This document shows, in pieces, positions 279 to 48,358 of a stretch of DNA of 64,000 nucleotides. The translations under genes were made by a program, and so were the position numbers. Each line of letters begins with the position of its first letter. The stretch's first letter is position 1. Where the stretch lies: contig JAACSU010000007.1 of assembly GCA_010119145.1 (NCBI GenBank), forward strand, positions 329,869-393,868, given 5' to 3'. Source of the stretch: Candidatus Gracilibacteria bacterium (GTDB taxonomy: Bacteria > Patescibacteriota > Gracilibacteria > BD1-5 > UBA6164). The notes under the pieces are model-generated. The model saw only the letters and a program-made list of their open reading frames with translations. It did no database searches and was not told the DNA's origin.

Positions 279-1958
279 TTATTTTTCATTTTTTACTTTA
301 TATATTTTGATATGTTCGCTATCAAACAGTTTTTCATAATGAACTGTATCCTCTTCTAAAAACATATATTTTCTCCAGTCTGCACAACTTGAATTAAATA
401 GAACATATTCAATCCTATTTTTTATAAGTAAGTTTATGTCTTTGTTATTTACAAACTTATTTATGTCTATAGATTGGGATGCAACACTATTTGAATACAG
501 TTTCCCTATTTCTATATTATCAGAAGTGACAATATTAGCAGGATAGTATAAATCCTTTGCTCGATTTGCAGTCACCTTACCGTAAGTCCAATCACAAGCC
601 ATATAGCTATGCCAGGGAAAATTTATGATTTTACTGTCTGCTGGAATCTTAGTTTGCACAAATTCACGAGCTTCAAATATATCATCTGGATAATCAGATA
701 TATTGAGTTGCCCCCAGAATCAAATAAGCATTGTGGGAACCCATAGAATTGGCAATACTACGATAAATACTTTTACAAGGTATTGAAAAAGTCGTTTAAA
801 TATATTCTCTTGTATATTATTGAGCCACTTAGAGTGGAGTAAATACATAGATCATATGACAAAATATATCATGTATATTCACTGCGTCAATGCTAACCAC
901 TTTTGAGGTTCTCTCATACCGATATAAAACGGCAGATATTCATAAAGTATTTCACTTGACCATCCCCAAATTGGCGATGCGATTCACATAGATAATATGT
1001 ATGCTATAACTGCAATACTACTGAGAACAATCGCTATATATTTATCTCTGATATAGAGTTTGTATCATCCGTATACAACTATAGTGAGTACTAGAATTGC
1101 AAATATATACCAATACTTCATGATATCATCGGGAGATATGATATGATATTTTTCACCCCAAAAACCATATCCAAACAGATGAGTGAGATCCACTCATAGT
1201 CCAGATAAGCTGTTTCATTGAAATACTTCAATATTATCACGAGTGAATGACTCAAGCTTGGACACATTTGTATTGAGTCGAAGGGCATAATCTCAAACAA
1301 GCCAATTTATATTGAGTAAAATAACACCAAAAAGTATGAGCATAAACTGGATAATATTCTTTGGGTACATCAGAGTCAATACTGTTAATATCAGTACGAT
1401 CAGTAATATTGCGTGTGGAAATATCATCCATGCCACAGCAAATGGAAACATAGAGAGTATTCACAGGTTGTAGTACTTCAGAATCCTGTGATAATCATAT
1501 GTTGCATCGCATGGTCGAGCTCTACAAATCAGAATTATTAGTATTCATATTATGAGCATATAGCTTCCAAATGCTATTCCCGTTTGACTAATAAGTCGCT
1601 CATACATAAATGGATTATATACAGCCGCAATTATAGCAGCTATATCAAGCGTTTTACTTCTAAACTGGGGAAATGTTGTTCAAATATACTTTGATATTAG
1701 TAGTCATGTAGTGATTCAAACAAGAATTACAAATACAAAAAAAAGTTTTGAAAACAGTGCATATCATAATAAATATGATAATAAATGAGTTAAGTGTCAA
1801 AATATTGATACTTCAAAAAATCATCTAAATTCTGTGAAAGGTGCAAATCCAGTATCAAGTAGGAAATATGTACCGAGTAATAAGAAGAAACTTGGGAAAA
1901 GATTAATTATCAGTATTCCAAGTATCAGTATGATTATGTGCCAAGAGTTTTTAAGCAT
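279..1958 (-). CDS. Large multi-pass membrane protein, possibly GT-C type transferase
   Basis: A 559-residue protein read through many TGA glycines. The N-terminal 400 or so residues are a series of hydrophobic membrane segments. The C-terminal 130 residues are soluble and probably extracytoplasmic (…TKIPADSKIINFPWHSY…). This layout, membrane bundle plus soluble tail, is seen in GT-C glycosyltransferases and YfhO-like membrane proteins, but I see no catalytic motif that decides it. Its ATG overlaps the stop of the upstream gene by 8 bp, so the two are probably translationally coupled. Its place in the polysaccharide operon suggests sugar transfer or polymerisation at the outer membrane face. 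Function is inferred from context. Confidence 0.7.
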
Positions 1959-3801
1959 TCTTTTTTCTATATTTATAATAACTTTGTAATCATCATATAA
2001 TTATTAATATATTTATAATAAACAACACAAAGTATATATGATATTTTCAAACTTTTTGAATCTGTAAGTAATCATTAGAACTTGGTGTAAAGTAAACTTC
2101 TCAATTTTTACAGTCTTCAACTAATAAATTTGTATCTCAATCTATCCAAAAAGAATTACAAACTGATAATTTCTTTGAATCAAGTATCAAATTATAAATA
2201 TAAATATTTCAGATTTGATTTGTATTCACTAAAATTCATTGAATCAATAATTCTTCTTCAAGCTCTAATCTAGAAATAGTATTTCTATAAAAATTTTTAT
2301 CAGTATTGTCGTCATAAATAATCTTATTTACTCAATATTCTTCAAGTTTATTTACCCAGTTTAAAAGCCTAAAATTTGTAAGATTTTTTAAGTCTAACTC
2401 AAATCTTTTATTTCAACATCCAACACATCTACTTTGAATAAAGTTTCAATCTATAAATAATTCTAATAAAGAAGAAGACCCAAATTGCTTGATTCAGTTT
2501 CAAAAATTATAAACAGGAAAGTATTGAGGAGGATAGACTAAAATATTATCATTTTTTGAAATGAGTTCTTCATTATTTAATATTTTATAATCAGATGGTA
2601 TATTGGATTTTGTTATGTTACTTGTTATTACATTTCAGCTTAAAAAAATAATCAACGTTGGAATTGAAGCAATAAAAAATAAAATAGATGGAATTTTGAT
2701 ATTTTTATTATATATAAGTAAAAGTAATATTAAAACATAAATGAGAAAGAAGAATTTAGAAGTATTTCTGAAAATTGAACTTAGTGGAATAGAATAAAAT
2801 ATGTTTGTAAAAACATTAGAAATTTGAGTGACTTCTCATAGTATTAAAAATGATAGGAAAATAATTAATCATACCATTATAATATTATTTACATTTTTTT
2901 TTGACTTATTTAATATTAATATAAAAATTGGAACAAAAATCCATAGAGATGTGAAGTATCCAATTAATGTATTATAAAAAGGAGAATAGTTTCTATATAA
3001 GTATCAATTATTTCAACTAAAAAATCACCAGTCAGTAATTCCTCTTATAAATGTTATTATATTTGTTCAATTTCTGTAAAATATTTCACTTGATAGTATA
3101 CTATTTGCAGCTTCTTTACTAGAAAAAAAGAAAAATATATTTGGAAAGATAAAAATAAAACTTATTAAAATTCAGAATATTAAAAAAGTAAAATTTTCTT
3201 TTGATATGATATTATTACTTTGAAAAATTATTTTTACTATAATTCATAAAACTATTAACATCAATCAAAATGGAAGATTTACAGCTGAGGCTAATCATAT
3301 GAGTAAATAATAAATAAAATATCCCCAATATGACTTTTTAAGTAATACATATATACTCAAAGGTATCATCCAGTAAATGTATACAAATATACTAGCTCAA
3401 ACAAAGTTTATTATTGAGAATGTAGAAAATGTATATCCTAATGAGATAAGGACAGAATATTTATAGTTTGATTTATTGTAATTTTTTATCAATAGTTCTA
3501 TTCAAACCATTGAAATAAAAATAAATATAAATATTGATAAAGAATGAAATATTTGAGGATTAATTCATAAATAAATAATATTTTTATAAATAAATATAGG
3601 TATACTAAGCCAAAAATCAGATGATTTAATTTCTCAAAAATTAATGGTAGAATAATAATCTCAAATATTGTTTAATCATGAAGTTGCATTGTTATTTCAC
3701 ACATAAGCTGCAACTAAAGAAGAGGAAATAAATCATTTAATATATATATAAACAGAAACTATAAATGAAATTAAAATATAGATTACATAATTATACATCA
3801 T
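1951..3801 (-). CDS. Large multi-pass membrane protein, unknown, polysaccharide operon
   Basis: A 616-residue protein starting MMYNYVIYILISFIVSVYIY. About a dozen hydrophobic segments cover roughly residues 1-430, followed by a soluble region of about 150 residues and a final membrane segment near the C-terminus. The architecture matches the neighbouring 559-residue protein and suggests a paralogous GT-C-like or O-antigen-polymerase-like enzyme. No conserved catalytic residue can be named. Gene ends overlap neighbours on both sides (11 bp and 8 bp). It is very rich in Ile, Phe and Asn, in line with the AT-rich DNA. Confidence 0.65.
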
Positions 3802-18968: not shown

Positions 18969-19104
18969 CTCTTCACTTCTATTTTGAAGTATATGGGGCT
19001 ATTCTTGGTTTCTATTGGGAGAATTCGTCAGACTCCTATTGCTATCCGGGAGATGTTTGTGACTTCCGAAATCAACACATTCATCCTTAAACGGAACACG
19101 AATT

Positions 19105-19161
19105 GCTAAAGGTCTTGCTGCTTTCAAAGCTTCAACTACTCCTTCACTATCATTTGCATAG
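19105..19161 (+). other. Predicted tmRNA tag reading frame
   Basis: The most plausible tag frame starts at GCT (19105), 110 nt from the 5' end, and encodes AKGLAAFKASTTPSLSFA before TAG (19159-19161). The tag has no TGA and ends SFA rather than the usual LAA. The other frames give very short or non-alanine-starting tags. The resume codon is inferred from position and composition, not from a solved fold. Confidence 0.5.
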
Positions 19162-19423
19162 TGTAAAACGTGGCCTCTCTTAGGAGATGAGTGCGATTGC
19201 CTGCCACACCATTTATACAAACTTGCGTTTAGGAGACATTGTATGAATTATTTTAATCTAAACCGTGATTTGAGTATTTTAAAAATATTTTAGCTCTCGT
19301 CTCGCAACTCAAAACGTTTCTCTCTTCAGCTTTGTCTGTTTTCTCGTTTGAAGGGGAGTATCTAAAACAGACTATGATAGTAGACGTACGAGCTGGCCTC
19401 CCAAGACGTGGGTTCAAATCCCA

Positions 19424-21139
19424 CTAGCTCCACCAAATAGGATTGAATAGAGTTTCGACTTCAGGTTTTACCTGTATTTGAAGCTCTTTTTTGCTGTTTA
19501 TTTGTATGTTCAAAAACAATAATTTAGCAATTTTCCTCTTTTGAACATAACTAGCTTTTTTATAATAGCTTTGAGCATTGTTTAATATATCAATAAACAC
19601 TTCAAGTTCTACTATCTCATTTCTCTCTCATTCATCGAGAGCTTCTATTTCTTTTCTGAGAAACTTTATTTTAGAATCATAATCATTTCTTGTAGCTTCA
19701 TAGATACTTCTTTCCTCATTATCTGTTATTTTAGACATATTAGCTTGAATATATTTCTCTTTTCTTGTTTTAATACGTCCTATTTCAACTTGTTTCTTTT
19801 GTATTTTATCTTTAGTAGTGAGAGTTATATCCTCTAATTTAGTATTTATAGTAACTACATATTCATCAAACTGCTTTTTTGATACCTTAAAGCCTCATAG
19901 TACGTCGATAATCTTATTATCTATATCTTCTAACGAAACACTGAGTTTGTGACTCTTAGAGGCTGTATTTGCACATCTATAGTTTATTTGCGATGGACTT
20001 ACTACATCTTGTAGTTTAAGAAGTTTTCATTTCTTATTTGCTTCATCAATTTTATCAAAGTATCTTTTCTTATTCGGAAGAGAAAAAGTAAAACCATAAT
20101 TATCTTCTGTTTTTATAAAATCTATATCAAAAACTTTAATATCTTCATATATATCTTTTGTACGGCTTTTTTTAATAACAGTAGGATTTTTATAGTATCT
20201 CTCTTGTAGGACTTGAAATTGCTCTTCAGTAATAACAGGGGAGTAATACTTATTAGTCTCTCTTAAATCAGTGACGGTATCTCAATTTATAAACATTCCA
20301 TAATAAAATTCATCTTGAAACATCTTATTGAGCATTGTTTTACTAATAGGTCTTTCTTCTCAAGCTTTTATATAATATCTAGTGTATCAATTTGCATCTA
20401 AGAAATCTTTTATTTTTGATTCTACTTCTCAATTTAGTTTCATATCAAAAGCCTCTTTAATAAGAGGGAAGTATTCAGCATGGGGTTCGTGAAATCCATC
20501 TTCGTTTTGAAAGTATCACGGCTTATGTCTTCCTATAGCTTTTCAAGAGGCTACCTTACTATCATTTCATCTTGTAATATCGTCACTGAGTTTATCACTA
20601 TATTGTTTAGAGAATACAAACCATATTCAGAGCATCATTTTCCCACTTGCTGTATCTTCATAATGGAAGTTAGGGTATTTTACGGATAATACGGTTTTAC
20701 TTTGCTCTCTATTGATTTTAAGCTTGTTTTGATCGAGTAAATCAATGATATCTCAAGCCTCAAGCATATTTCTTGCTTGTCTGTCAGGAGAGTAGCTTAT
20801 GATTCCATTAATCTCTCAGCTTTTCACTTTCTTTATGAGGTTTTTCCATTTCGTTCGTTTTCATGGGACTTTTGCTGTTTCTTGCTCTTTTATAATGAAT
20901 AAATGCCTTGTATCTTGAAAGGTCTTTCTATTTACTAAGTCAGCTTCATTATCCTCTTTATATACTTCAGATTCACTTTCAAAGAGTGAAAAATCTTTTG
21001 GCTTACTTACTATAGTCAGCCCCTCTCTTTCAGCATATGAAACGCAAGCTCGTATTTGGTCAGGTATTGACTGCTTTTGATTGTCTGAGCTTTCGTCAGT
21101 AGATTTCCTGCAATAAATTATATAGTTTATATCGCTCAT
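19424..21139 (-). CDS. Large serine recombinase (site-specific integrase)
   Basis: A 571-residue protein starting MSDINYIIYCRKSTDESS, with the nucleophile Ser13 in the YCRKS motif. The catalytic domain continues through IISYSPDRQARNM (about residue 115). A recombinase DNA-binding domain (about 200-300) and a long charged coiled-coil-like region (about 430-520) follow. The Cys pairs of the usual zinc ribbon are not visible, only YRC remains. The last codons (IWWS-stop) lie in the tmRNA acceptor stem and CCA, so the att core is part of the coding sequence. Such enzymes catalyse directional insertion between attP and attB. It is the final gene of the element's operon. Confidence 0.92.
19427..19435. 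other. Putative attachment core, left (tmRNA side)
   Basis: GCTCCACCA, the last nine bases of the tmRNA. The same nine bases recur at 26912-26920. TTCAAA stands 8 nt before this copy and 12 nt before the other. Short identical cores are usual for serine recombinase sites. Confidence 0.55.
19450..19492 (+). terminator. Hairpin with T-run after tmRNA, inside the recombinase gene
   Basis: GAGTTTC…GAAGCTC outer stem, CAGGT…ACCTG inner stem, then six Ts. On the plus strand it would terminate tmRNA 15 nt after its CCA. On the minus strand it is coding sequence for the recombinase C-terminus. The element thus appears to supply the terminator of the gene it entered. Confidence 0.6.
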
Positions 21140-21214
21140 ATGTTCAAAATAGGTATAGGAATATATAATATATTTTACTCAATTTGAACATTTATACAAT
21201 AAAAAAAGAGCTGA

Positions 21215-21316
21215 TTACTCAGCTTCTTTCTCGTTTCTATCTATTTCTTGGAATATTCCAAGGAGTTCATAAAGAATCTCTCAGACAGAAGTGCTTTCAC
21301 TATTTTGTGAAGACAT
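21215..21316 (-). CDS. Small hypothetical protein (33 aa)
   Basis: An acidic peptide starting MSSQNSESTSVGEILYELLG, with AAGAG seven bases before its ATG as a weak Shine-Dalgarno. It lies between the 328-aa gene and the recombinase on the same strand. One TGA glycine. It may be a small regulator, or chance. Confidence 0.4.
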
Positions 21317-21408
21317 AATCTCTTACTTCATCATAGGCTCTTTATAGTAAAAGAGTAGTTCTGATTTCAGTAATAAGTCCTATATGGTAGTAGGTAAATA
21401 TATTATAT

Positions 21409-22395
21409 TTACTCTTTGCCTCCTTTCAATTTTATCTTTTCTTTAATGCTATATTTATTGATTTTTCATTTATGAATATCAGTTTCAATTTTAGAGAAAG
21501 GATATTGTTTTTTTAAGTCTACAAACTTTGTATCGTCTCAATATATATTGATTTGTCACTCTATAAAGCTTATTTCTCATTTCTGCTTTTTTATCTTTAT
21601 TTCATTATATTTTTCATCAAATACTTTATCTAGAATTAGACTTCTTTTCTCTTCTATTTCATCTAATATTTTTTTAAAGTCAGGTAGGATTCTTATTCAA
21701 TACTTAGTATTTTCTTCATATACAGTTGAAAGCCCAGTTATTTCTATAAATCAAAGAAAGCTATAGCATATAACAAACTCCATAAATGAAATTTCTTGTT
21801 TCTTTTGAAACATTTCCTTACTTATTTCAAATTCATCTCATAAGACATTATACAGGTAAGATATAGTATTTATAATAATCTTCTTATCGTATCTATACTT
21901 AGAATCAATTAGGTCATTGTCATAATATGTAAAATAAATAGTTTCAAAAAATCCCTCTATATATCATTTATAAAAATCTTCATAAAATTTCTTATGGTTC
22001 ATACATTTTGCAGGTATGATACAAACATTTTCTAAGTCTTTTTCTTTCAGCTTTATATATATATCATTTTGAAATAACTCTACTATATTATATTTTTCTA
22101 TAGATTTATTACCTGTTAATTCAAAGTATCATAGTCAATAGAAATGAAAGTTTAGATAAAAGAAAACTAATTTATCTCTATTTGTTAAATTTAATCAAAA
22201 AAAATCTAGAAAATTGTATATTTCTGCTCAGCTATTAATATCCCATCAATTTTTGATGAAATTTGTAAATATAATATAGTGATATTGAGATTTTAGCATC
22301 ACTCATACATCTTTTGAAGAGTAATGAGAATAGATTTGCTTGAGTTCTTCAAATCAGTCTTCAATATTTTTTAGAGCATCTTCTTTTGTTATCAT
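21409..22395 (-). CDS. Unknown protein of the R-M cassette (328 aa)
   Basis: Starts MITKEDALKNIEDGFEELKQ, 6 bp after the HNH nuclease stop, so probably co-translated with the nuclease and methyltransferase. It is soluble, rich in Tyr, Phe, Lys and Glu, mostly helical in appearance, with a basic Lys-rich C-terminus. No motif is recognised. By position it could be an accessory restriction or immunity subunit, a specificity factor or an unrelated cargo protein. The frame is open only with TGA as glycine. Confidence 0.7.
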
Positions 22396-22401
22396 AGCTT
22401 A

Positions 22402-23502
22402 CTATAGTGTCAATTCATTGAAGTTGTCTTGAAAAACAAACTTTCTATGATAATCTAAGTATTTTTCTCGTTTCTCTGGAAATATTCTAACATTCCTTTT
22501 AATATTAGGATTAATATTTAATTTATCCCATGTGTATTTACTTAATAATGTTCAACATATTAAATCTCATTGATCTGTAAAAGTAATATAACCTTGGTCA
22601 AATAGCTTATCATAGGTAGGAGAAAATGCTAATCAATTTAAATAATCATTAGCTTCTATCATACTATTTTCATTAACGCAGGCTTTATATGGTTTTATAT
22701 GACTTGCAATAAGTAATCTTTCATCCGATATCAAAGTGAATGGACATTGGGGCATATATTCAATGACCTCTTTTCTATATTTTTGTTGTCATTCTCTTGA
22801 TTTTACTCTTTTAGTTTTTGTAATTTTTGTTTCCTCTTCTAATATCTCTTCACTAAACTCGGTAATTTTAGGATGAGTGATAGACCTGAAATTATAATCT
22901 AATAGGATTCTGAAGTAGTATAGAGGCTCAGTGCCATTGTTAGAATCAATAGGAATTAGCTTTAGTATAGATAAGTAACTAATTTTTGGTAGGATTATTT
23001 TCCTCCAAGTTTTCCATATATTATCATCTGAGCGAATATATCATCTGTCTCTTCAACTATCTAAGAAATCTGAAACATCATATATCTGAAATCAATTTAC
23101 TTCAGATTCTAAATTATTAATTTCTTCAAAATATTGATTATAATTTTCAGAAATATTTTGATTGTAAAATTGTTCTTGTTGTTGATATTCAATTCTTGAG
23201 TCGTATAGATATTTTAATAAATTATTTTTACTAAAAAAACACTTATTTTGGATTTGAGTATACTCTCTTTCTCAGTCTTCATTTTTTCCTTGTCACCATT
23301 TTTTATATTCAAAAAAAGTGCTTAATCTATCTCAGCTATCTCATTTATAGCTTCCTACATATTTTCTAGCCTCTCAATTTCACTTGTATAGAGCAAGCTT
23401 GTTTTTTCTATGTATAAAACTATCTTCAGCTCTCAAATCTTGTATTGAATCAATAACATAGTAATCATTTCAGTCTATGCGTAATTTTTGATAATTAGTC
23501 AT
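22402..23502 (-). CDS. HNH endonuclease, probable restriction enzyme
   Basis: A 366-residue protein. The C-terminal 110 residues carry the HNH fold of restriction-associated nucleases: QCPFTLI, then ASHIKPYK (first His), then LNGLAFSPTYDKLFDQGYI (Asn and the final metal-side motif). The usual second HNH histidine appears as Asp (YDKLFD), a change to note. The N-terminal 240 residues are family-unknown and could bind the recognition site. Its start overlaps the C5 methyltransferase stop by 8 bp, which strongly suggests a type II restriction-modification pair. Recognition sequence cannot be read from the protein. Confidence 0.82.
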
Positions 23503-24769
23503 TTTTTTCAGAATACTTAGTAATATCTATTTCTAATAAGATAGCGATTAAAACGTCTACGACAATACTATTTCAAGCTTGCCTATACATTTGAGTATCA
23601 CTTACATTTTGTTTGAAATCATCTCAGAATCACATTAGTCTCAAACATTCTCTAGGAGTAAGTTTCCTTATTTTTCATTTATTGTGAGTAACATAATTAT
23701 CAACTCAAGCTCGATGCATTTTATGCATACTCTGTAAAAGTGGTCTTGCTACTTCTAGGTCAGTGGAATTATTATTTGTTCTAAAGTTTTTTGTTCAATA
23801 AGCCAAAACATATTTCTTAGTTTTTTCAGAAAGATAGTATTTCTCTTCAACCTCATTAATATTAAAAATAAAATCATCAAATCAACTTTCATTTGCCTCT
23901 TCAAATACAAAGTCTCAATGCCAATTATATTGTTGATTTGCCTTCTGACATATAGCTATATCTCAATTTATTTGTGTATATCTTTTTTTTCTATTCTTAG
24001 AACTTGTTACAAATTTAACTCATTTCTCTTTTAGGTAATATTTAGAATCAGTATAATCTTCTAAAAAATCCTGCATAGAATGTTCAAGTTTAATTGGAGC
24101 TGGAAAAGTAAAATCAACTTTATGGTCTTTAAATCATATTACGAATATTCGTTCTCTATGTTGAGGTATTCAGTAGTCTTTGGAGTTTAGAACTTTATAG
24201 CTATATTTATAGCCTAGTTCATCAAATGTAGCTTTCATAACCTCAAAGGTGTTTCACTTATCATGGTTAATAAGTCATTTAACATTCTCATATATAAATA
24301 TTTTAGGCTGGCTCTCCTTTATTACCCTAGCAAACTCATAAAATAGAGTCCCTCTCGTATCATCAAATCACTTTCTTTTTCATACCATAGAAAATGATTG
24401 GCAGGGACTTCATCCAACTAGTAAATCAATTTTTCATTTATATTTCTTACCTTTAATGTCATTAACATCATCATACCATTGACTATCGTTTATACCATAA
24501 TTAGTAAAGTAACTTTCTTTTACAAATTTATCTATATCACTTGCAAAAACAATTTCTGATTTTACTCAAAGCCTCTTAAATGAATGTTCAATTGCTCAGA
24601 TTCAAGAAAACATTGTTGCAATTTTTATGTTGGCATTAGGGTTCGAAAGAGTATTATATCTCCAATCTTTATCTTTAGGTTGCTTTTTAAAATTAATTGG
24701 ATAATTCTCAAGTGCAAATATTACCTTTTTTTTACTTTCTTTTATATTAGATGAAACAAGGGGGTTCAT
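23495..24769 (-). CDS. DNA (cytosine-5) methyltransferase
   Basis: A 424-residue enzyme with the family's ordered motifs. Motif I ATMFSGIGAIEHSF is near residue 51, motif IV GGSPCQSFS with catalytic Cys123, motif VI YENVKG (about 160), motif VIII GIPQHRERIFVIG (about 200). A target-recognition region follows and motif X YRQAGNSIVV lies near residue 400. It uses S-adenosylmethionine to methylate cytosine. All key glycines of motifs I and IV include TGA codons. It is followed with an 8-bp overlap by an HNH nuclease, so it most likely protects against that enzyme. It starts after a 307-bp regulatory gap. Confidence 0.95.
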
Positions 24770-25076
24770 ATTTGGATATATATCGTGTATAAAATTCTTC
24801 GGTACTATATATTGGATTTTGTAAAATTCAATATTAAATTTTATCTATTAAAATTTAGTATTATATTATTTATATAAATATACTAACATTTAGTGCAAAA
24901 ACAATCCTAAAATTAGACTTTAACATACATTTAATTAGGTAACAATACTTTAATTTTACAGTCTTTTTACCTAACGTCTTATAACGATAATAATAGTAGT
25001 ATAAATCAAGATATTATTAAAAATAGCTCTAAGTTAAATCGGGTCATCAAATAATTATTTATATTTTAGATTTTAA
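24770..25076 (-). promoter_or_regulatory. Regulatory gap upstream of the methyltransferase
   Basis: 307 bp of very AT-rich DNA without a gene. It contains a long inverted repeat at 24830-24862 (AATATTAAATTTTA / TTAAAATTTAGTATT, 4-nt centre, one mismatch) and a second one, TTAGGTAA (24935-24942) / TTACCTAA (24967-24974). Such repeats are expected for control of an R-M operon, whose timing must be regulated. No separate controller (C) protein gene is seen. Confidence 0.5.
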
Positions 25077-25883
25077 TTAAATTCAGATATTTTTTTCAGT
25101 TTCTACTAATATTTTTCAGGGAACTAAAAGCTTAGGTATATATTGTAAAGCTAAAGGGTCTCTTTCTTTAAAATATCAAGTTCATTTCTCTGGAATCCAT
25201 ATATTATCTACATAATAGATAAAAGTTGGTAGTACATCATTTTCATATTGCTTACAGTCAAATTCTGTACCATTAGGAAACTTATGAGAGTACATCTTAT
25301 ATTTATTTGAAAATTCAGGATGATTCTTCTTTAAGTAATCAGAAAATAATCTTCATACTGAATTATCAGGTCTAATCTCTTTGTTATTTAAAGCCTTATT
25401 TGGTATTTGGTATCAAATTCTTTCAAATTGTCCATACAGTCTTATAAAGAGTTCAGAAATAACAGAAAAATAACCCCTTTCTGTTCTATCCCAGTTATCA
25501 TTAAAACGTACTACAAAATTGGGAGTCTCAAGCCTATTAATTCAATAAGCTCAGGTTTTCCTTATGGATGGAATTACCTCTTTAGTCACCCATTTTCTAA
25601 ATGTTTTCGCAGATTCTTTTCTACTTTTAAAAATCAAAGCATATAATCCACTTTCAGAAATGAGTTTCACATTACGTTCCTGACCTGACCTATGTAATAC
25701 ATAGTCCAGCTTTTCGTCTTCGTCTAATCATTGTATAGCTATGGTTGCATTTTGAATTTCAAGTAATTTACAAACGTCAATTGCAACAAACCAAATATCA
25801 CCATCTATATTTATAGTTGTTAGATTTGCGAAATGTTTTTGGTCTTCTTCAAATTGAAAAAGTTGTATTTGTGCTGGACTCAT
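25077..25883 (-). CDS. Bro-N domain protein (prophage antirepressor type)
   Basis: A 268-residue protein. Residues about 20-110 follow the Bro-N pattern: IDGDIWFVAIDVCKLLEIQN, then DEDEKLDYV, ISESGLYALIFKSRKESAK and FRKWVTKEVIPSIRKTG. Bro-N domains bind DNA and are common in phages and mobile elements as antirepressors. The C-terminal 150 residues are not a familiar antirepressor domain. It lies between the 201-aa element gene and the R-M pair on the same strand. A 23-nt repeat found upstream of it also precedes the 201-aa gene. Confidence 0.85.
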
Positions 25884-25946
25884 ATTTTATATTTATATAA
25901 ATATTATAATAGTAATATAACGAGCTTTAAAGATTAATGAAAAGTT

Positions 25947-25969
25947 TTAACCGAAATCATTAGTCTGTA
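25947..25969. repeat. 23-nt element repeat, copy 1
   Basis: Contains TTAACCGAAATCATTAG followed by TCTGTA. It differs by one base from copy 2 at 26673-26695 and lies 64 bp upstream of the Bro-N start. Confidence 0.75.
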
Positions 25970-25973
25970 ACTT

Positions 25974-26579
25974 TTACCATCATAAAAGACTACTCATATT
26001 TTCTACTTCTTCTCTTGAAGGCATTTTTTGCTTTAATTTAAGTATTCTCTGAGCTTTCTTTGTGAGTTTCCCATTTCTTACAGGGTATTTCATAGTTCTT
26101 CTTATAACTTCTATTTTTACAAAAGCATCTCACATCAAATATCACATATACCTGTATCTCTTACTTTTCTTTTGATCGTCGTAGCATAGATTAAGGGTCT
26201 TTCTACTCGCAAATATTCAATTCCCTTGTAGGTAGAGTATAGAGCATCTATTTTCTTTACAAGGACATAAGAACCACCATCTGACTCCTCAGTAATTACA
26301 AAGAGTAGATACAAGGGAGATTTTATAATCAAAAGACTTTTTTTCTCAATCTCTATTTGTTTGAGTGAAAGTAACTCTTATATATCAAGAAGTTTCTCAT
26401 TTATTTACTTCTATTCATATATTTCAATTATCCTCTCATCATAGCTTCCAATAAAGCCCTCATTTTTTATAATCTACTCAAGCATCTAAGTATCAGTACT
26501 TTTTAAGAAATTTAATACTAAGAGTCTTTGAATAGTCTTCTACACTATCTCTTCACTGTCAGTAGTAATATCTTCACAT
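25974..26579 (-). CDS. Element-associated hypothetical protein (201 aa)
   Basis: Starts MGRYYGQGRDSVEDYSKTLS and reads through about 18 TGA codons. The middle has a WWFLCPCKENRCSILYLQ segment followed by ASRKTLNLCYDDQ. This resembles a domain of small phage and plasmid proteins with a Cys-x-Cys…Cys knuckle and a following NLxY motif. The C-terminal 50 residues are strongly basic. DNA or RNA binding is possible but not shown. A second frame across the same DNA stays open under the standard code and is a shadow. Confidence 0.72.
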
Positions 26580-26628
26580 GGTAAGGTTTTGTTAGGGTGT
26601 TATTTATCAATAAAGGTTAACATTAGTT

Positions 26629-26661
26629 AGCATTTGTTAGTAAGCAATTTGTAAGCATTTA
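26629..26661. repeat. Three iteron-like direct repeats
   Basis: AGCATTTGTT, AAGCAATTTGT and AAGCATTTA are spaced 11-13 bp apart, about one helical turn, in the promoter region of the 201-aa gene. They may be binding sites for an element regulator or replication protein. Confidence 0.4.
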
Positions 26662-26672
26662 CTTTCTCTCTA

Positions 26673-26695
26673 TTAACCGAAATCATTAGCCTGTA
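26673..26695. repeat. 23-nt element repeat, copy 2
   Basis: TTAACCGAAATCATTAG followed by CCTGTA, in the same orientation as copy 1. It lies 94 bp upstream of the 201-aa gene start and 58 bp beyond the 41-aa gene stop. Repeated position before two element genes suggests a shared operator. Confidence 0.75.
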
Positions 26696-26752
26696 GGGAA
26701 GTGTTCATATATAGTTAGCTTATATATAAATACTATAGTTTTATTTGTACTA

Positions 26753-26878
26753 CTATACTACTTCATATAAAAGCCTCTCTTCTCGGGAGAGCTTTCAAAG
26801 TATCTTCTCACTTCAGTCAAACTCACTTCTATAAAAAGCCATTAATCATTTAGCTACTCTAAGAGGACTTCTTTTCAT
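26753..26878 (-). CDS. Small hypothetical protein (41 aa) at element right end
   Basis: Starts MKRSPLRVAKGLMAFYRSEF and continues as a basic, helix-forming peptide ending in LYEVV. AGAGG lies 5 nt before the ATG, a good Shine-Dalgarno by the standards of this contig. The frame stays open far upstream across the att core, so an older, longer protein may have been cut by the insertion. Function unknown. Confidence 0.5.
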
Positions 26879-26911
26879 AAAAGCCTCTATATGTTCAAAG
26901 TGTGAGCTATT

Positions 26912-26920
26912 GCTCCACCA
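26912..26920. other. Putative attachment core, right
   Basis: A second copy of GCTCCACCA, preceded by TTCAAA 12 nt upstream as a partial echo of the tmRNA T-loop. It lies just outside the last minus-strand element gene and before the plus-strand chromosomal genes. Confidence 0.5.
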
Positions 26921-26968
26921 TATGATTTTTATCTCTTTCTCACAAGGAATGAGTCCGATAAATAAGCG

Positions 26969-26997
26969 AAAAAGTAGGTTTTCAAACCTGCTTTTTT
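26969..26997 (+). terminator. Intrinsic terminator, possibly the original ssrA terminator
   Basis: GTAGGTTT-TC-AAACCTGC stem with an A-run before and six Ts after. It lies 49 bp beyond the right attachment core. If the element were excised, it would stand downstream of the tmRNA. Confidence 0.75.
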
Positions 26998-27078
26998 ATC
27001 GTATAGTAATTTCTGTTTTTTTAAGTAAGATATACATACTATAAACCACAGTGGAAAATAGCTTTATACTTTTTAATT

Positions 27079-28352
27079 ATGATTATGAATAATATAATTA
27101 AGAAAATTGCTAGTACACTCAGTTTAACGACTCTTTTATTTTCAATTTTCTTAACAGTACATGCTGGAGTCTCTACAGAAACGGATGCTGCAAATTCGTT
27201 ATCTTCTCTTTGAATCATTGTCGACCAATCGGGTACTCCCGAGGCATATAATTTAGGAGCTACTATTACGAGAAGAGAAATACTTAAGGTTATGATAAAT
27301 ATGTCTCTTGTACAAGTTTGAAATACTTGTACCGGAAAGTTTATTGATTTACCAGAATCTGATTGGGGATGTAAGTATGCAGAAGTTGCATTATCAAGAG
27401 GTTTTATTGCTCCCAATTCTTTCTTTAGACCAGATGATAGTGTATCAAAAGCAGAAGCATTGAAAATGATTTTTCAATCGAGAGGTCTTTCTAAAGATTA
27501 TTCGTATGAGGATTGGAGAGTTTGATATATAGCAGCAGCTATACAAAATAGAGTATTGGATAAACTCTATACAGATTATAATACCGCTTGAACTCGAGGA
27601 TGAATTTTTCTCTCTGATCTAATGCTATTGATATAACACCAGATTTACAAACTGCTTGTATAGATGAAGTGTGAGGTATTCCTGTGATTACTTCTATTTC
27701 TGCCTATTCAGGTACTATTGATGCAAAACTTACCATAAAGGGCTGTAACTTCTCAGGTTTTGAATGAGATAAAAATGCTTGGATTGAAGATAATCAAGGG
27801 ATTAAATGAATTATATATTGAGATTCATCATCAACTTCAAATATTCTCCACATTACTTTACAATCTCCCTTATGTCAAAGCGACACTTCATATAGTGGTC
27901 TCACCTGTAGCACTTGGTTTACTTTAATCCCATGAGAATATAAAATTTATACCTCACCATGGGGAAAGCAGAGTAATATAATCGGCTTTACTGTACTAGA
28001 TCCTCAATACATAATCCCAGAAATTTCTTATCAAGATGTTATGGATTATGTAAATCAACATATTACAGAAATCATCACTCCGTATTCTTCTATTTTACCA
28101 GTAAATGGTACATGGTTTGCTGACTGATATGGTTTTACATCAACTCATCATGCTTACGTGGATTATGAAGACTGACACAATTTGTATAGAGCATTATTAA
28201 ATTGTGATACCATAGATTCCACGATTTCATGTAATCCTTTAGCAATATTTGAAAAACAATCTTCATCATGGATAGTAATCCAAGGAGAAGATACTCAAAA
28301 AGATAATCCTATAGTCTATCAACATACCTTAGATTATGTATGGGAAAGATAA
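27079..28352 (+). pseudogene. SLH-domain secreted protein interrupted by a frameshift
   Basis: The first frame (27079-27636) encodes a signal peptide and SLH-like repeats (ATITRREILKVM, WGCKYAEVALSRG, SVSKAEALKM) and stops at TAA. The coding signal continues without break in the -1 frame to TAA at 28350-28352, giving about 245 further residues with Cys pairs and an Ig-like look. The switch is at the T5 run 27605-27609. One extra T would restore one ORF of about 425 residues. It could be a true pseudogene, an assembly error or programmed -1 slippage. The C-terminal part has aromatic-rich segments (WIVIQGEDTQKDNP) of unknown role. Confidence 0.75.
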
Positions 28353-28366
28353 AACTTTAATTTTTT

Positions 28367-28495
28367 TTACAGTAAAAGGTCGGCAATACTGCCGACCTTT
28401 TTGTTACAAAGCGAAAAGTTTCAAGGACGAGGGACAAGACCTTTGAGATACAATGTCTCAATCAGACCTTTTCCTTTGTGCTGAGTATCGGCCAT
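28367..28495 (-). CDS. Minigene with perfect Shine-Dalgarno (24 aa if TGA stops, 42 aa if TGA = Gly)
   Basis: AGGAGG stands 7 bases before the ATG, the best ribosome site on this strand. The peptide starts MADTQHKGKGLIETLYLKGL and runs to VPRP, then TGA at 28421-28423. Read as glycine, the frame goes on through the terminator hairpin to TAA at 28367. Read as stop, it ends neatly 22 bp before that hairpin. Glycines are GGA/GGT except for this one TGA. No family is recognised. It may be a leader peptide, a foreign gene or a structured RNA. Confidence 0.5.
28376..28403. terminator. Strong bidirectional terminator
   Basis: AAGGTCGGC-AATACT-GCCGACCTT stem followed by Ts on the plus strand and by TACTG then As on the minus strand. 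It serves the SLH gene on the plus strand and could end the minigene transcript from the other side. Confidence 0.85.
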
Positions 28496-47528: not shown

Positions 47529-48152
47529 TTAGTTTTTAATTATTTTGTCGATGAGACCATACTTGAGTGCATCTTCTGCAGTCATAAAGTTATCTCTGTC
47601 ACAATCCTTTTCGATTTGTTCGAGAGTTTGACCTGTATGTTTTGCTAATATTTTATAGAGAATTTTCCCTGTTTTTTCTATATGTCGTGCTGCAAGCATA
47701 ATATCTGTAGCCTGACCTTCTGCTCCACCAAGTGGTTGGTGTATCATAATTTCAGCGTGAGGTAGAGCATATCTCTTGCCAGTTTCTCCACCAGCAAGTA
47801 TGATTGACCCCATACTCGCAGCAAGTCCCATAGCTACGGTTGTAACAGGACATTTTATATATTGCATCGTATCGTAGATTGCAAGACCTGCTGTTACGTG
47901 TCATCCTGGTGAGTTTACGTACAGAGTAATTCCTGCTTTCGGGTCTTGTTTTTCTAAGAATAATAATTGAGCTATAACAGTATTTGCTACGGCACTGTCG
48001 ATTCATTCTCCAAGAAAGATCACTCTATCCTCCAAAAGTCTAGAATAGATGTCATAGGCTCGTTCTTGCCCCCCAACTTTATCTATAACAGTTGGAATTA
48101 GAGTTGAGATAATACTTCTTTGCGATAATTTTGATTCTATTTGTTTAGCCAT
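47529..48152 (-). CDS. clpP: ATP-dependent Clp protease proteolytic subunit
   Basis: A 207-residue serine protease. The catalytic Ser113 is in GLAASMGS, His138 in [10 protein letters not shown], and an Asp in KDCDRDNF. Length and motifs are those of normal ClpP, which forms a 14-mer chamber fed by ClpX/ClpA. In this cell it would be expected to degrade tmRNA-tagged proteins. It lies divergent from gltX, with a 206-bp promoter region between. Confidence 0.97.
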
Positions 48153-48358
48153 TGATTATTTTAATGTATAGTAAGTCCATCTAGTATATCATAAAAAATG
48201 AATTCTCAAGAGAGAGTTGTATAAAATACATTTGACTAGCATTAATTTATTGAATAAATATTTTTAAAAGAACTGTTTTGTTTTGAATAAAAGCTTCTTG
48301 AAAAAATCTTAGTTTTTTTTATACTATACAAAGAATACTTAGAAATTAACAAGCCAAG
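48153..48358. promoter_or_regulatory. Divergent clpP/gltX promoter region
   Basis: 206 bp without a gene. TATACT near 48320 is a plausible -10 for gltX. No clear -35 or operator is visible. Confidence 0.35.

Follow-up and report, generated by a model that had tools for sequence, protein, structure and literature searches.

We analysed a 64,000-nt stretch of Candidatus Gracilibacteria DNA (assembly GCA_010119145.1, contig JAACSU010000007.1, positions 329,869 to 393,868; hereafter the window) and found in it a large serine integrase gene that has very probably been split by the insertion of the element that carries it. Positions 19427–26920 of the window are almost certainly an integrated mobile element of ~7.5 kb, located at the 3' end of the tmRNA gene ssrA and ending at two copies of GCTCCACCA. 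The integrase frame enters the attachment (att) core at one of these ends and a conserved, in-frame continuation, a tail of 55 codons at 26756–26920, is found at the other end of the element. We read this to mean that attP, the attachment site of the element, lies inside the serine integrase gene and that the element as a whole is explained by an integrase split at its own insertion, and we give this reading a probability of roughly 0.85. Integrative elements with a serine recombinase at ssrA are already known; the interesting part is the split serine integrase with its conserved tail, a feature that an earlier note on this DNA had missed. The features of the element and its borders, by position, strand and supporting match, are as follows.

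18995..19435, plus strand: ssrA (tmRNA), the integration target, whose 3' end GCTCCACCA is the attachment core (Rfam RF00023, 72.8 bits against a cut-off of 47 bits, model positions 1–374 of 374)
19427..19435, plus strand: attL core GCTCCACCA, the 3' terminus of ssrA (repeat search)
19424..21139, minus strand: large serine recombinase (P0001) in its integrated, truncated form, 571 residues, with its last three codons and stop inside ssrA (PF00239, PF07508)
19445..19491, plus strand: terminator-like hairpin with a following T-run, on the strand of ssrA and antisense to the C-terminal codons of the recombinase (folding, z -3.78)
21409..22395, minus strand: protein of 328 residues with a homologue in the G043 element (61%); no family match
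22402..23502, minus strand: HNH endonuclease, similar to type II restriction endonucleases, cargo (PF13391 1.3e-8; PADLOC HNH 2e-19, REase_II 4.7e-16)
23495..24769, minus strand: DNA cytosine-5 methyltransferase, cargo, overlapping the HNH gene by 8 nt (PF00145 1.3e-87; TIGR00675 1.5e-94)
25077..25883, minus strand: Bro-N protein, its N-terminal half like phage anti-repressors and its C-terminal half like BstA (PF02498 2.8e-21; phrog_130 2.4e-41; phrog_6287 6.5e-15; PADLOC BstA 3.2e-7)
25974..26579, minus strand: protein of 201 residues beside the tail, in the same position in G043 (72%) and, by eye, in G015; no family match
26753..26920, minus strand: probable orphan 3' fragment of the recombinase gene, 55 codons (26756–26920) and a stop, starting at the attR core in the recombinase frame
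26912..26920, plus strand: attR core GCTCCACCA (repeat search)
26921..27000, plus strand: outer flank, outside the element, a probable relic of a different ssrA-abutting recombinase end (G027 type) with a terminator-like hairpin at ~26969–26996 (66/80 identity to the G027 ssrA flank; z -3.17 for 26921–27010)

All six genes of the element are on the minus strand. The core sequence GCTCCACCA occurs at 19427, 26912 and 47722, while shuffling predicts 0.02 copies in the window; the copy at 47722 was considered as a third att copy and rejected, and is taken as unrelated, because it lies inside another open reading frame (47532–48155). The window element is an ssrA/tRNA gene (tDNA)-specific integrative element, which sits between an intact tmRNA gene and a copy of that gene's 3' end. 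The earlier note had described the recombinase gene as abutting ssrA, had found GCTCCACCA at both proposed ends and had listed a methyltransferase/HNH pair, a Bro-N protein and unknowns on one strand between them, and it had read the whole as an integrative element with a large serine recombinase at ssrA and restriction-modification (R-M) cargo in a code-25 genome. The Rfam, Pfam, PADLOC and PHROG matches and the repeat count bear this description out, and the ends are backed by the layout of a related element in G043 and by an occupied/empty pair of genomes, G003 and G007 (both below). ARAGORN did not detect the tmRNA at 18995–19435, although Rfam matches it over its full length, a miss by which the window tmRNA may escape automated annotation in the lineage.

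The window recombinase is a large serine recombinase with an N-terminal resolvase catalytic domain (PF00239, 1.4e-13, 51.6 bits; cut-off 23.3) followed by a recombinase domain (PF07508, 2.3e-8, 34.6 bits; cut-off 21.1), and it matches the integrase family phrog_95 (1.7e-43). Its frame is open only when TGA is read as glycine and contains 14 in-frame TGA codons. The cargo had been said in the earlier note to be recoded in this way; TGA=Gly is indeed used, but as the code of the host, in the flanking genes too, and not as a property of the cargo. A structural model of the recombinase (pLDDT 76.5, pTM 0.38) gave seven Foldseek matches at E <= 0.001, all of them serine integrase or large serine recombinase entries, with low TM-scores of 0.18–0.34; the best were PDB 9dxf, 9y66, 4kis and 9iu9. 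Long helices are predicted at residues 421–467 and 474–520 of this model, and the zinc-ribbon family PF13408 is not matched by P0001. No second recombinase domain was recognised by Pfam among the six window genes, two of which have no family match, and the NCBIfam CcrA model gave 30 bits, far under its cut-off of 700. The family alignment that we used for the recombinase has 12 rows.

The stop codon of the integrated gene is supplied by the target. The last codons of the recombinase, TGG TGG AGC TAG (stop at 19424), are the reverse complement of the ssrA 3' end, CTAGCTCCACCA, and the protein ends at attL in WWS* in G000 (the genome of the window), G003 and G014 and in WWR* in G015. Translated inwards from the far att copy, in the same frame as the recombinase at the near copy, the element gives WWSNSSHFEHIEAFMKRSPLRVAKGLMAFYRSEFDGSEKILGKLSREERLLYEVV and then a stop. 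This tail consists of the core codons and 52 further residues, and it begins exactly at the core in G043, G020, G014, G015 and G003 as it does in the window. In four aligned tail rows 17 of 55 columns are invariant, and the tail model (four sequences) is helical with a pLDDT of 79.5. The tail is under amino-acid constraint: its ratios of nonsynonymous to synonymous change are 0.17–0.68 (12 of 15 pairs measurable, three being saturated), compared to 0.16–0.60 for the last 54 recombinase codons. Each of the remaining five frames over the tail contains stops in the six genomes compared. Just 3–34 open codons precede the tail or matched stretch in 14 of the 15 copies checked, the exception being a fusion in G043. 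The codon phase of the core is identical at both ends in six of six close pairs and also in G201, the core of which is the exact 3' end of the tmRNA. Since the tail lacks a conserved start codon, starts at the core and continues the recombinase frame, we assign it to the integrase.

A tail profile at E <= 1e-8 finds the tail in 7 of 79 relatives, all 7 within the 12 that carry the recombinase at E < 1e-30. At E <= 0.001 there are matches in 17 of 288 genomes of the class, 16 of them uninterrupted; the seventeenth, in G094, was discounted because the tail is broken by three stops. Ten of the 16 uninterrupted tails come from outside the order, and 7 of these 10 are accompanied by the recombinase at E <= 1e-8. 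Nine genomes (G000, G043, G014, G020, G185, G206, G243, G201 and G258) have recombinase and tail on one contig, and in every one the tail lies upstream, on the strand of the recombinase; G258 contains a further recombinase fragment upstream of its tail. Some related frames were noted besides these: a degenerate tail-like frame in G001 (WWNNKDNFEQ...), frames of the form GFEPSTSRVT-IWHSNQ in G046, G010, G040 and G028, and, in a distant relative, several orphan tails in series upstream of a tmRNA-abutting recombinase (locus L266, G201:C5 262974, 263695 and 267414, and locus L256), which looks like serial accretion.

The layout recurs at other target genes. In G043 an element at tRNA-Glu has its recombinase next to the 3' end of the tRNA gene and is bounded by TTTGGTACTCC as a direct repeat with a spacing of 9685 bp; it has three genes in common with the window element, including homologues of the 328- and 201-residue proteins. 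Terminal repeats measure 8–11 nt in six elements. The recombinase abuts ssrA in G000, G001, G003, G014, G015 and, in decayed form, G020, and it abuts tRNA-Glu in G043 and G051, tRNA-Trp in G002 and tRNA-Phe in G017. The earlier note had proposed to look for an empty ssrA-attB joint in related genomes, and one was found for the family: in G003, where the two element ends are on two contigs, the recombinase abuts ssrA and the flank outside the tail matches the unoccupied ssrA flank of G007 at 60 of 73 positions (0 of 1000 shuffles as good), with a weaker match, 48 of 72, to the unoccupied flank of G008. Sequence comparison of this same-genus pair, G003 occupied and G007 empty, puts the joint at CCA. 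The window copy has no clean empty counterpart. In G004, the closest relative found, similarity to the window extends up to 19439 (73%), is interrupted by unrelated DNA and picks up at 28482 (92%).

Some assemblies of related genomes break at the same point, which we take as a sign of polymorphism there. Contigs stop 0–1 nt after the ssrA CCA in 5 of 46 loci (0.02 expected) and in none of the 46 on the 5' side; these loci comprise 43 of the 59 places over the cut-off and three weaker ones. In G014 two contigs have exactly 127 nt in common where ssrA ends; we interpret this as a fork of the assembly at the att site. At locus L075 (G038:C161) the ssrA 3' end is followed a few dozen bases further by its own inverted copy, possibly an assembly fold-back.

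Several observations weigh against the reading of an integrase split at its own attachment site. The completed gene is inferred and was not seen: a joined-protein search of 77 genomes of the order found no contiguous recombinase-plus-tail gene, and neither a circular form nor a complete gene was found in viral contigs (searched by recombinase alignment, tail alignment and an attP-proximal-arm DNA pattern) or in a plasmid collection. In a phage collection 16 records matched, each with less than 60% identity and none covering 80% of the query. An occupied/empty pair is available for the family and is lacking for the window copy itself. Uninterrupted tails are present in G216, G252 and G283 with no recombinase at E <= 1e-8, the recombinase and tail are on separate contigs in G003, G015 and G051, and no tail was detected for the 36–38% identical recombinase homologues in G002, G017 and G022. 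Among the ten rows from distant relatives the shared core is convincing in G201 alone, and seven rows lack a credible one; those of G243 (9 nt) and G103 (7 nt) are possible only, and could be chance because 9-nt matches were also found off-site in two rows. Finally, the ratios of nonsynonymous to synonymous change given above for the tail are rough because synonymous changes are near saturation in many pairs.

Of the other explanations, the one that survives best, and which we nevertheless consider improbable, is an ordinary serine-integrase island whose gene merely overlaps its target at the 3' end, with both overlap and tail functionless. The truncated form still has its catalytic and recombinase domains and the elements persist in the integrated state, as such an island would, and a low-efficiency, variable C-terminus is one option proposed for the Dehalococcoides gene dsiB in the available text of PMC3146451. 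What this explanation leaves out is that the tail stays open and constrained at the amino-acid level, whereas the outer flanks look mutually unrelated. It is more improbable still that the tail is a separate small gene, for example for a directionality factor, that starts at the att site by chance. The tail is a short conserved frame and the window copy contains an internal ATG at codon 15, but the other three aligned tails have V or I at this position, conservation runs from the first core codon, where there is no start codon, and the frame phase agrees with the recombinase at both ends in all six close pairs; the tail as a stand-alone gene was rejected for want of a conserved start. Least credible of all is that the tail is the leftover C-terminus of a second, flanking recombinase in tandem: an upstream recombinase in G043 (L091 4446–6053) reads in frame into the tail, a recombinase frame on a G206 contig ends at a tail out of frame and G000 has an 80-nt recombinase-end relic just outside its element, but the tail lies inside the att repeats and therefore travels with the element, just 3–34 codons are open in front of the tail or matched stretch in 14 of 15 copies, and homologues of the G043 upstream recombinase align to residue 492 of 536 at most (bar tail-only matches in G020, G015 and G000) with the tail starting at 482, so that this recombinase was rejected as the owner of the tail. 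From these alignments we read the G043 upstream recombinase and tail as a probable fusion by tandem insertion. At the G206 locus (L214) the recombinase frame, 1902–3563, overlaps the start of a tail-like frame, 3455–3670, and may be a decayed tandem fusion.

If the integrase gene is split in the way we propose, recombinase and tail would be joined on the excised circle as one gene of ~623 codons. Recombination of attP with attB at the CCA end of ssrA would then split the gene and regenerate ssrA, leaving an integrated integrase that is truncated, with a stop codon taken from ssrA, and a tail stranded at attR. Serine integrase directionality is usually set by a separate protein factor. Here the loss of the tail could itself be a built-in switch of directionality or activity, with the full-length form integrating and the tailless form locked or altered, and we put this forward tentatively, at rather less than even odds. 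We favour such a change over enzyme death because the truncated form keeps its catalytic and DNA-binding domains. A candidate partner is the gene for the 201-residue protein, the neighbour of the tail in G000, in G043 and, by eye, in G015; on the circle it would come directly after the completed integrase gene. A wider proposal, which falls somewhat short of an even chance, is that Gracilibacteria hold a class of self-splitting large serine integrases with attP at codons reverse-complementary to a tRNA or tmRNA 3' end, in which integration at several tDNAs would remove the conserved helical tail and thereby take the enzyme out of integration into a state that is locked or altered in excision, the rearrangement itself being the directionality control; the tail of a tandem newcomer could then re-complete or re-programme an older integrase, as in G043. 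Were this true, a serine integrase that sheds part of its own sequence when it integrates would be a self-recording switch made of one protein.

The arm of the element next to ssrA also contains a hairpin. In the first 60 nt after CCA a hairpin is followed by an invariant run of five T in all eight sequences folded (z -2.83 to -6.05), six of which are at ssrA (one beside the G020 pseudogene), one at tRNA-Glu and one at a partial tRNA-like stretch. Four of its 17 pairs keep pairing through changes on both sides, and four fail to pair in one or two sequences. Read on the opposite strand, this stretch codes for the C-terminus of the recombinase. A simple terminator scan overlooked the hairpin, the stem of which has an internal loop, and folding revealed it. 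We infer that it acts as a replacement for the displaced ssrA terminator; by bringing its own hairpin terminator the ssrA-adjacent arm would limit harm to the host.

On the other side, the flank to the right of 26920 resembles the recombinase end at ssrA in G027 (66 of 80 positions; 0 of 1000 shuffles as good) and matches the native ssrA flank of G007 at only 35 of 75. The ssrA-abutting frame of G027 has PF00239 (2.5e-20) and PF07508. Because the right flank is like the G027 recombinase end and not like a native flank, the element probably entered an already occupied site and, judged by these alignments, was probably inserted in tandem between ssrA and the relic of an older element. G027 itself was rejected as an empty site for the window, as its ssrA flank is the end of another serine recombinase gene and the native flank is of the G007/G008 type. 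Region 26921–28481 consists of the recombinase-end relic and then an SLH/TIG-type protein region; it has no match on the G004 contig, and homology resumes at 28482. Outside the window recombinase family, Pfam identifies serine recombinases in frames that extend to the ssrA CCA in G027, G041 and G061, and a partial frame of this kind in G039 has no recombinase match. The finding as a whole also hints at how small genomes could accumulate arrays of defence genes at ssrA.

The split design may be shared, with a different tail, by a second family of large serine recombinases. Its tail copies, found at the far end of the element in G035 and in G021, have 57% identity across 28 residues, and G022 and G020 gave weaker matches. 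They are preceded by 4–6 open codons in G035, G022 and G020 and by 60 open recombinase-like codons in G021, where these codons may belong to an older unsplit gene. Of the 12 loci fetched for this family (L222–L233), nine have a tRNA gene at the recombinase end according to ARAGORN (Glu in six, and Arg, Lys and Cys).

With regard to cargo, the type II R-M pair of the window element is a plausible addiction and defence load. The window cargo gene at 25077–25883 is a Bro-N/BstA fusion, with residues 93–243 of its product matching the BstA abortive-infection family (phrog_6287 6.5e-15; PADLOC BstA 3.2e-7). The 328- and 201-residue proteins have no Pfam, PADLOC, NCBIfam or PHROG match at E <= 0.01. 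No phage structural or packaging genes were recognised among the six element proteins with Pfam and PHROGs, two of these proteins having no match at all and the Bro-N gene matching phage anti-repressors (phrog_130). Elements in relatives carry other genes of this type: type II R-M and a DRT-like reverse transcriptase in G014, a type I-like M subunit (also matching a type II methyltransferase model) with an S-like subunit in G043, and Drt8 in the second-family element of G021. Just beyond the far end of the G014 element, at L093 12765–16280, HamA (PF08878) and a DEAD-box helicase form a Hachiman-like pair.

Our comparison with published systems follows the available text of each paper cited. 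The claim of the earlier note that a serine recombinase at ssrA is little described did not stand, as one has already been reported in Dehalococcoides by McMurdie 2011 (PMC3146451): the serine recombinase DsiB is at ssrA and the 3' end of its gene overlaps attL. Those islands share with the window element the recombinase at ssrA overlapping attL, the stop codon in ssrA (in theirs, in ssrA or a neighbouring island) and tandem arrangement. They differ in that the paper describes DsiB alignments as divergent, with no report of a conserved 3' fragment, and in that they insert in the T-loop (333/334), whereas the window element inserts at CCA (PMC3146451). DsiB is furthermore of a CcrB-like family and has a second small recombinase, DsiA, as a companion; for the window recombinase the Ccr-family score is far below the cut-off, and no small partner was recognised among the six window genes. 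The authors of PMC3146451 suggest that dsiB may need the circle, or a neighbouring island that carries the missing 3' fragment, to be fully functional, a suggestion that becomes directly testable here, with the missing piece in hand.

For serine integrases we found no report of a gene split at attP with a conserved 3' fragment among open-licence titles and abstract openings, subscription journals being mostly outside this set, and no mention of split serine integrases was found in the available text of Integrase-On-Demand 2026 (PMC12884075). The serine integrases of PDB 4kis, 9dxf, 9y66 and 9iu9 have the same fold and domain order, and their entry titles mention no gene split by its own integration. 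According to Islander 2014 (PMC4383910), only tyrosine integrases were known to target tDNAs, and the Mx8 and SSV integrases extend across attP. Contrary to that tyrosine-only statement, serine integrases are found repeatedly at tRNA and tmRNA 3' ends in Gracilibacteria.

The window enzyme is a serine recombinase; the targets in its family are ssrA and tRNA 3' ends, and many elements have the same layout. In these respects it is unlike the integrase of myxophage Mx8, which we take to be a tyrosine integrase. What the two have in common is that each is a bacterial integrase with attP, in our case by the reading proposed here, in the coding sequence; in Mx8, integration gives a new 3' end and a changed specificity and does not inactivate the enzyme (PMC6070905). 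In the archaeal suicidal integrases of SSV1, pTN3 and pT26-2 attP likewise lies within the integrase gene and integration splits it (PMC8371274), and the conserved in-frame tail at attR points to the same arrangement in the window, where the complete gene was not seen. The intact suicidal integrase gene is treated in PMC8371274 as its own directionality factor, and the Int(N) that is left after the split in SSV amounts to enzyme death. These archaeal enzymes are tyrosine recombinases with the catalytic domain in the C-terminal part, whereas the bacterial serine recombinase of the window, which has bacterial relatives, Gracilibacteria among them, keeps its catalytic domain and would lose only its tail. 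The Badel 2021 review (PMC8371274) describes self-disrupting recombinases as exclusively archaeal; the split integrase proposed here would extend the suicidal-integrase principle to bacteria and to the unrelated serine class.

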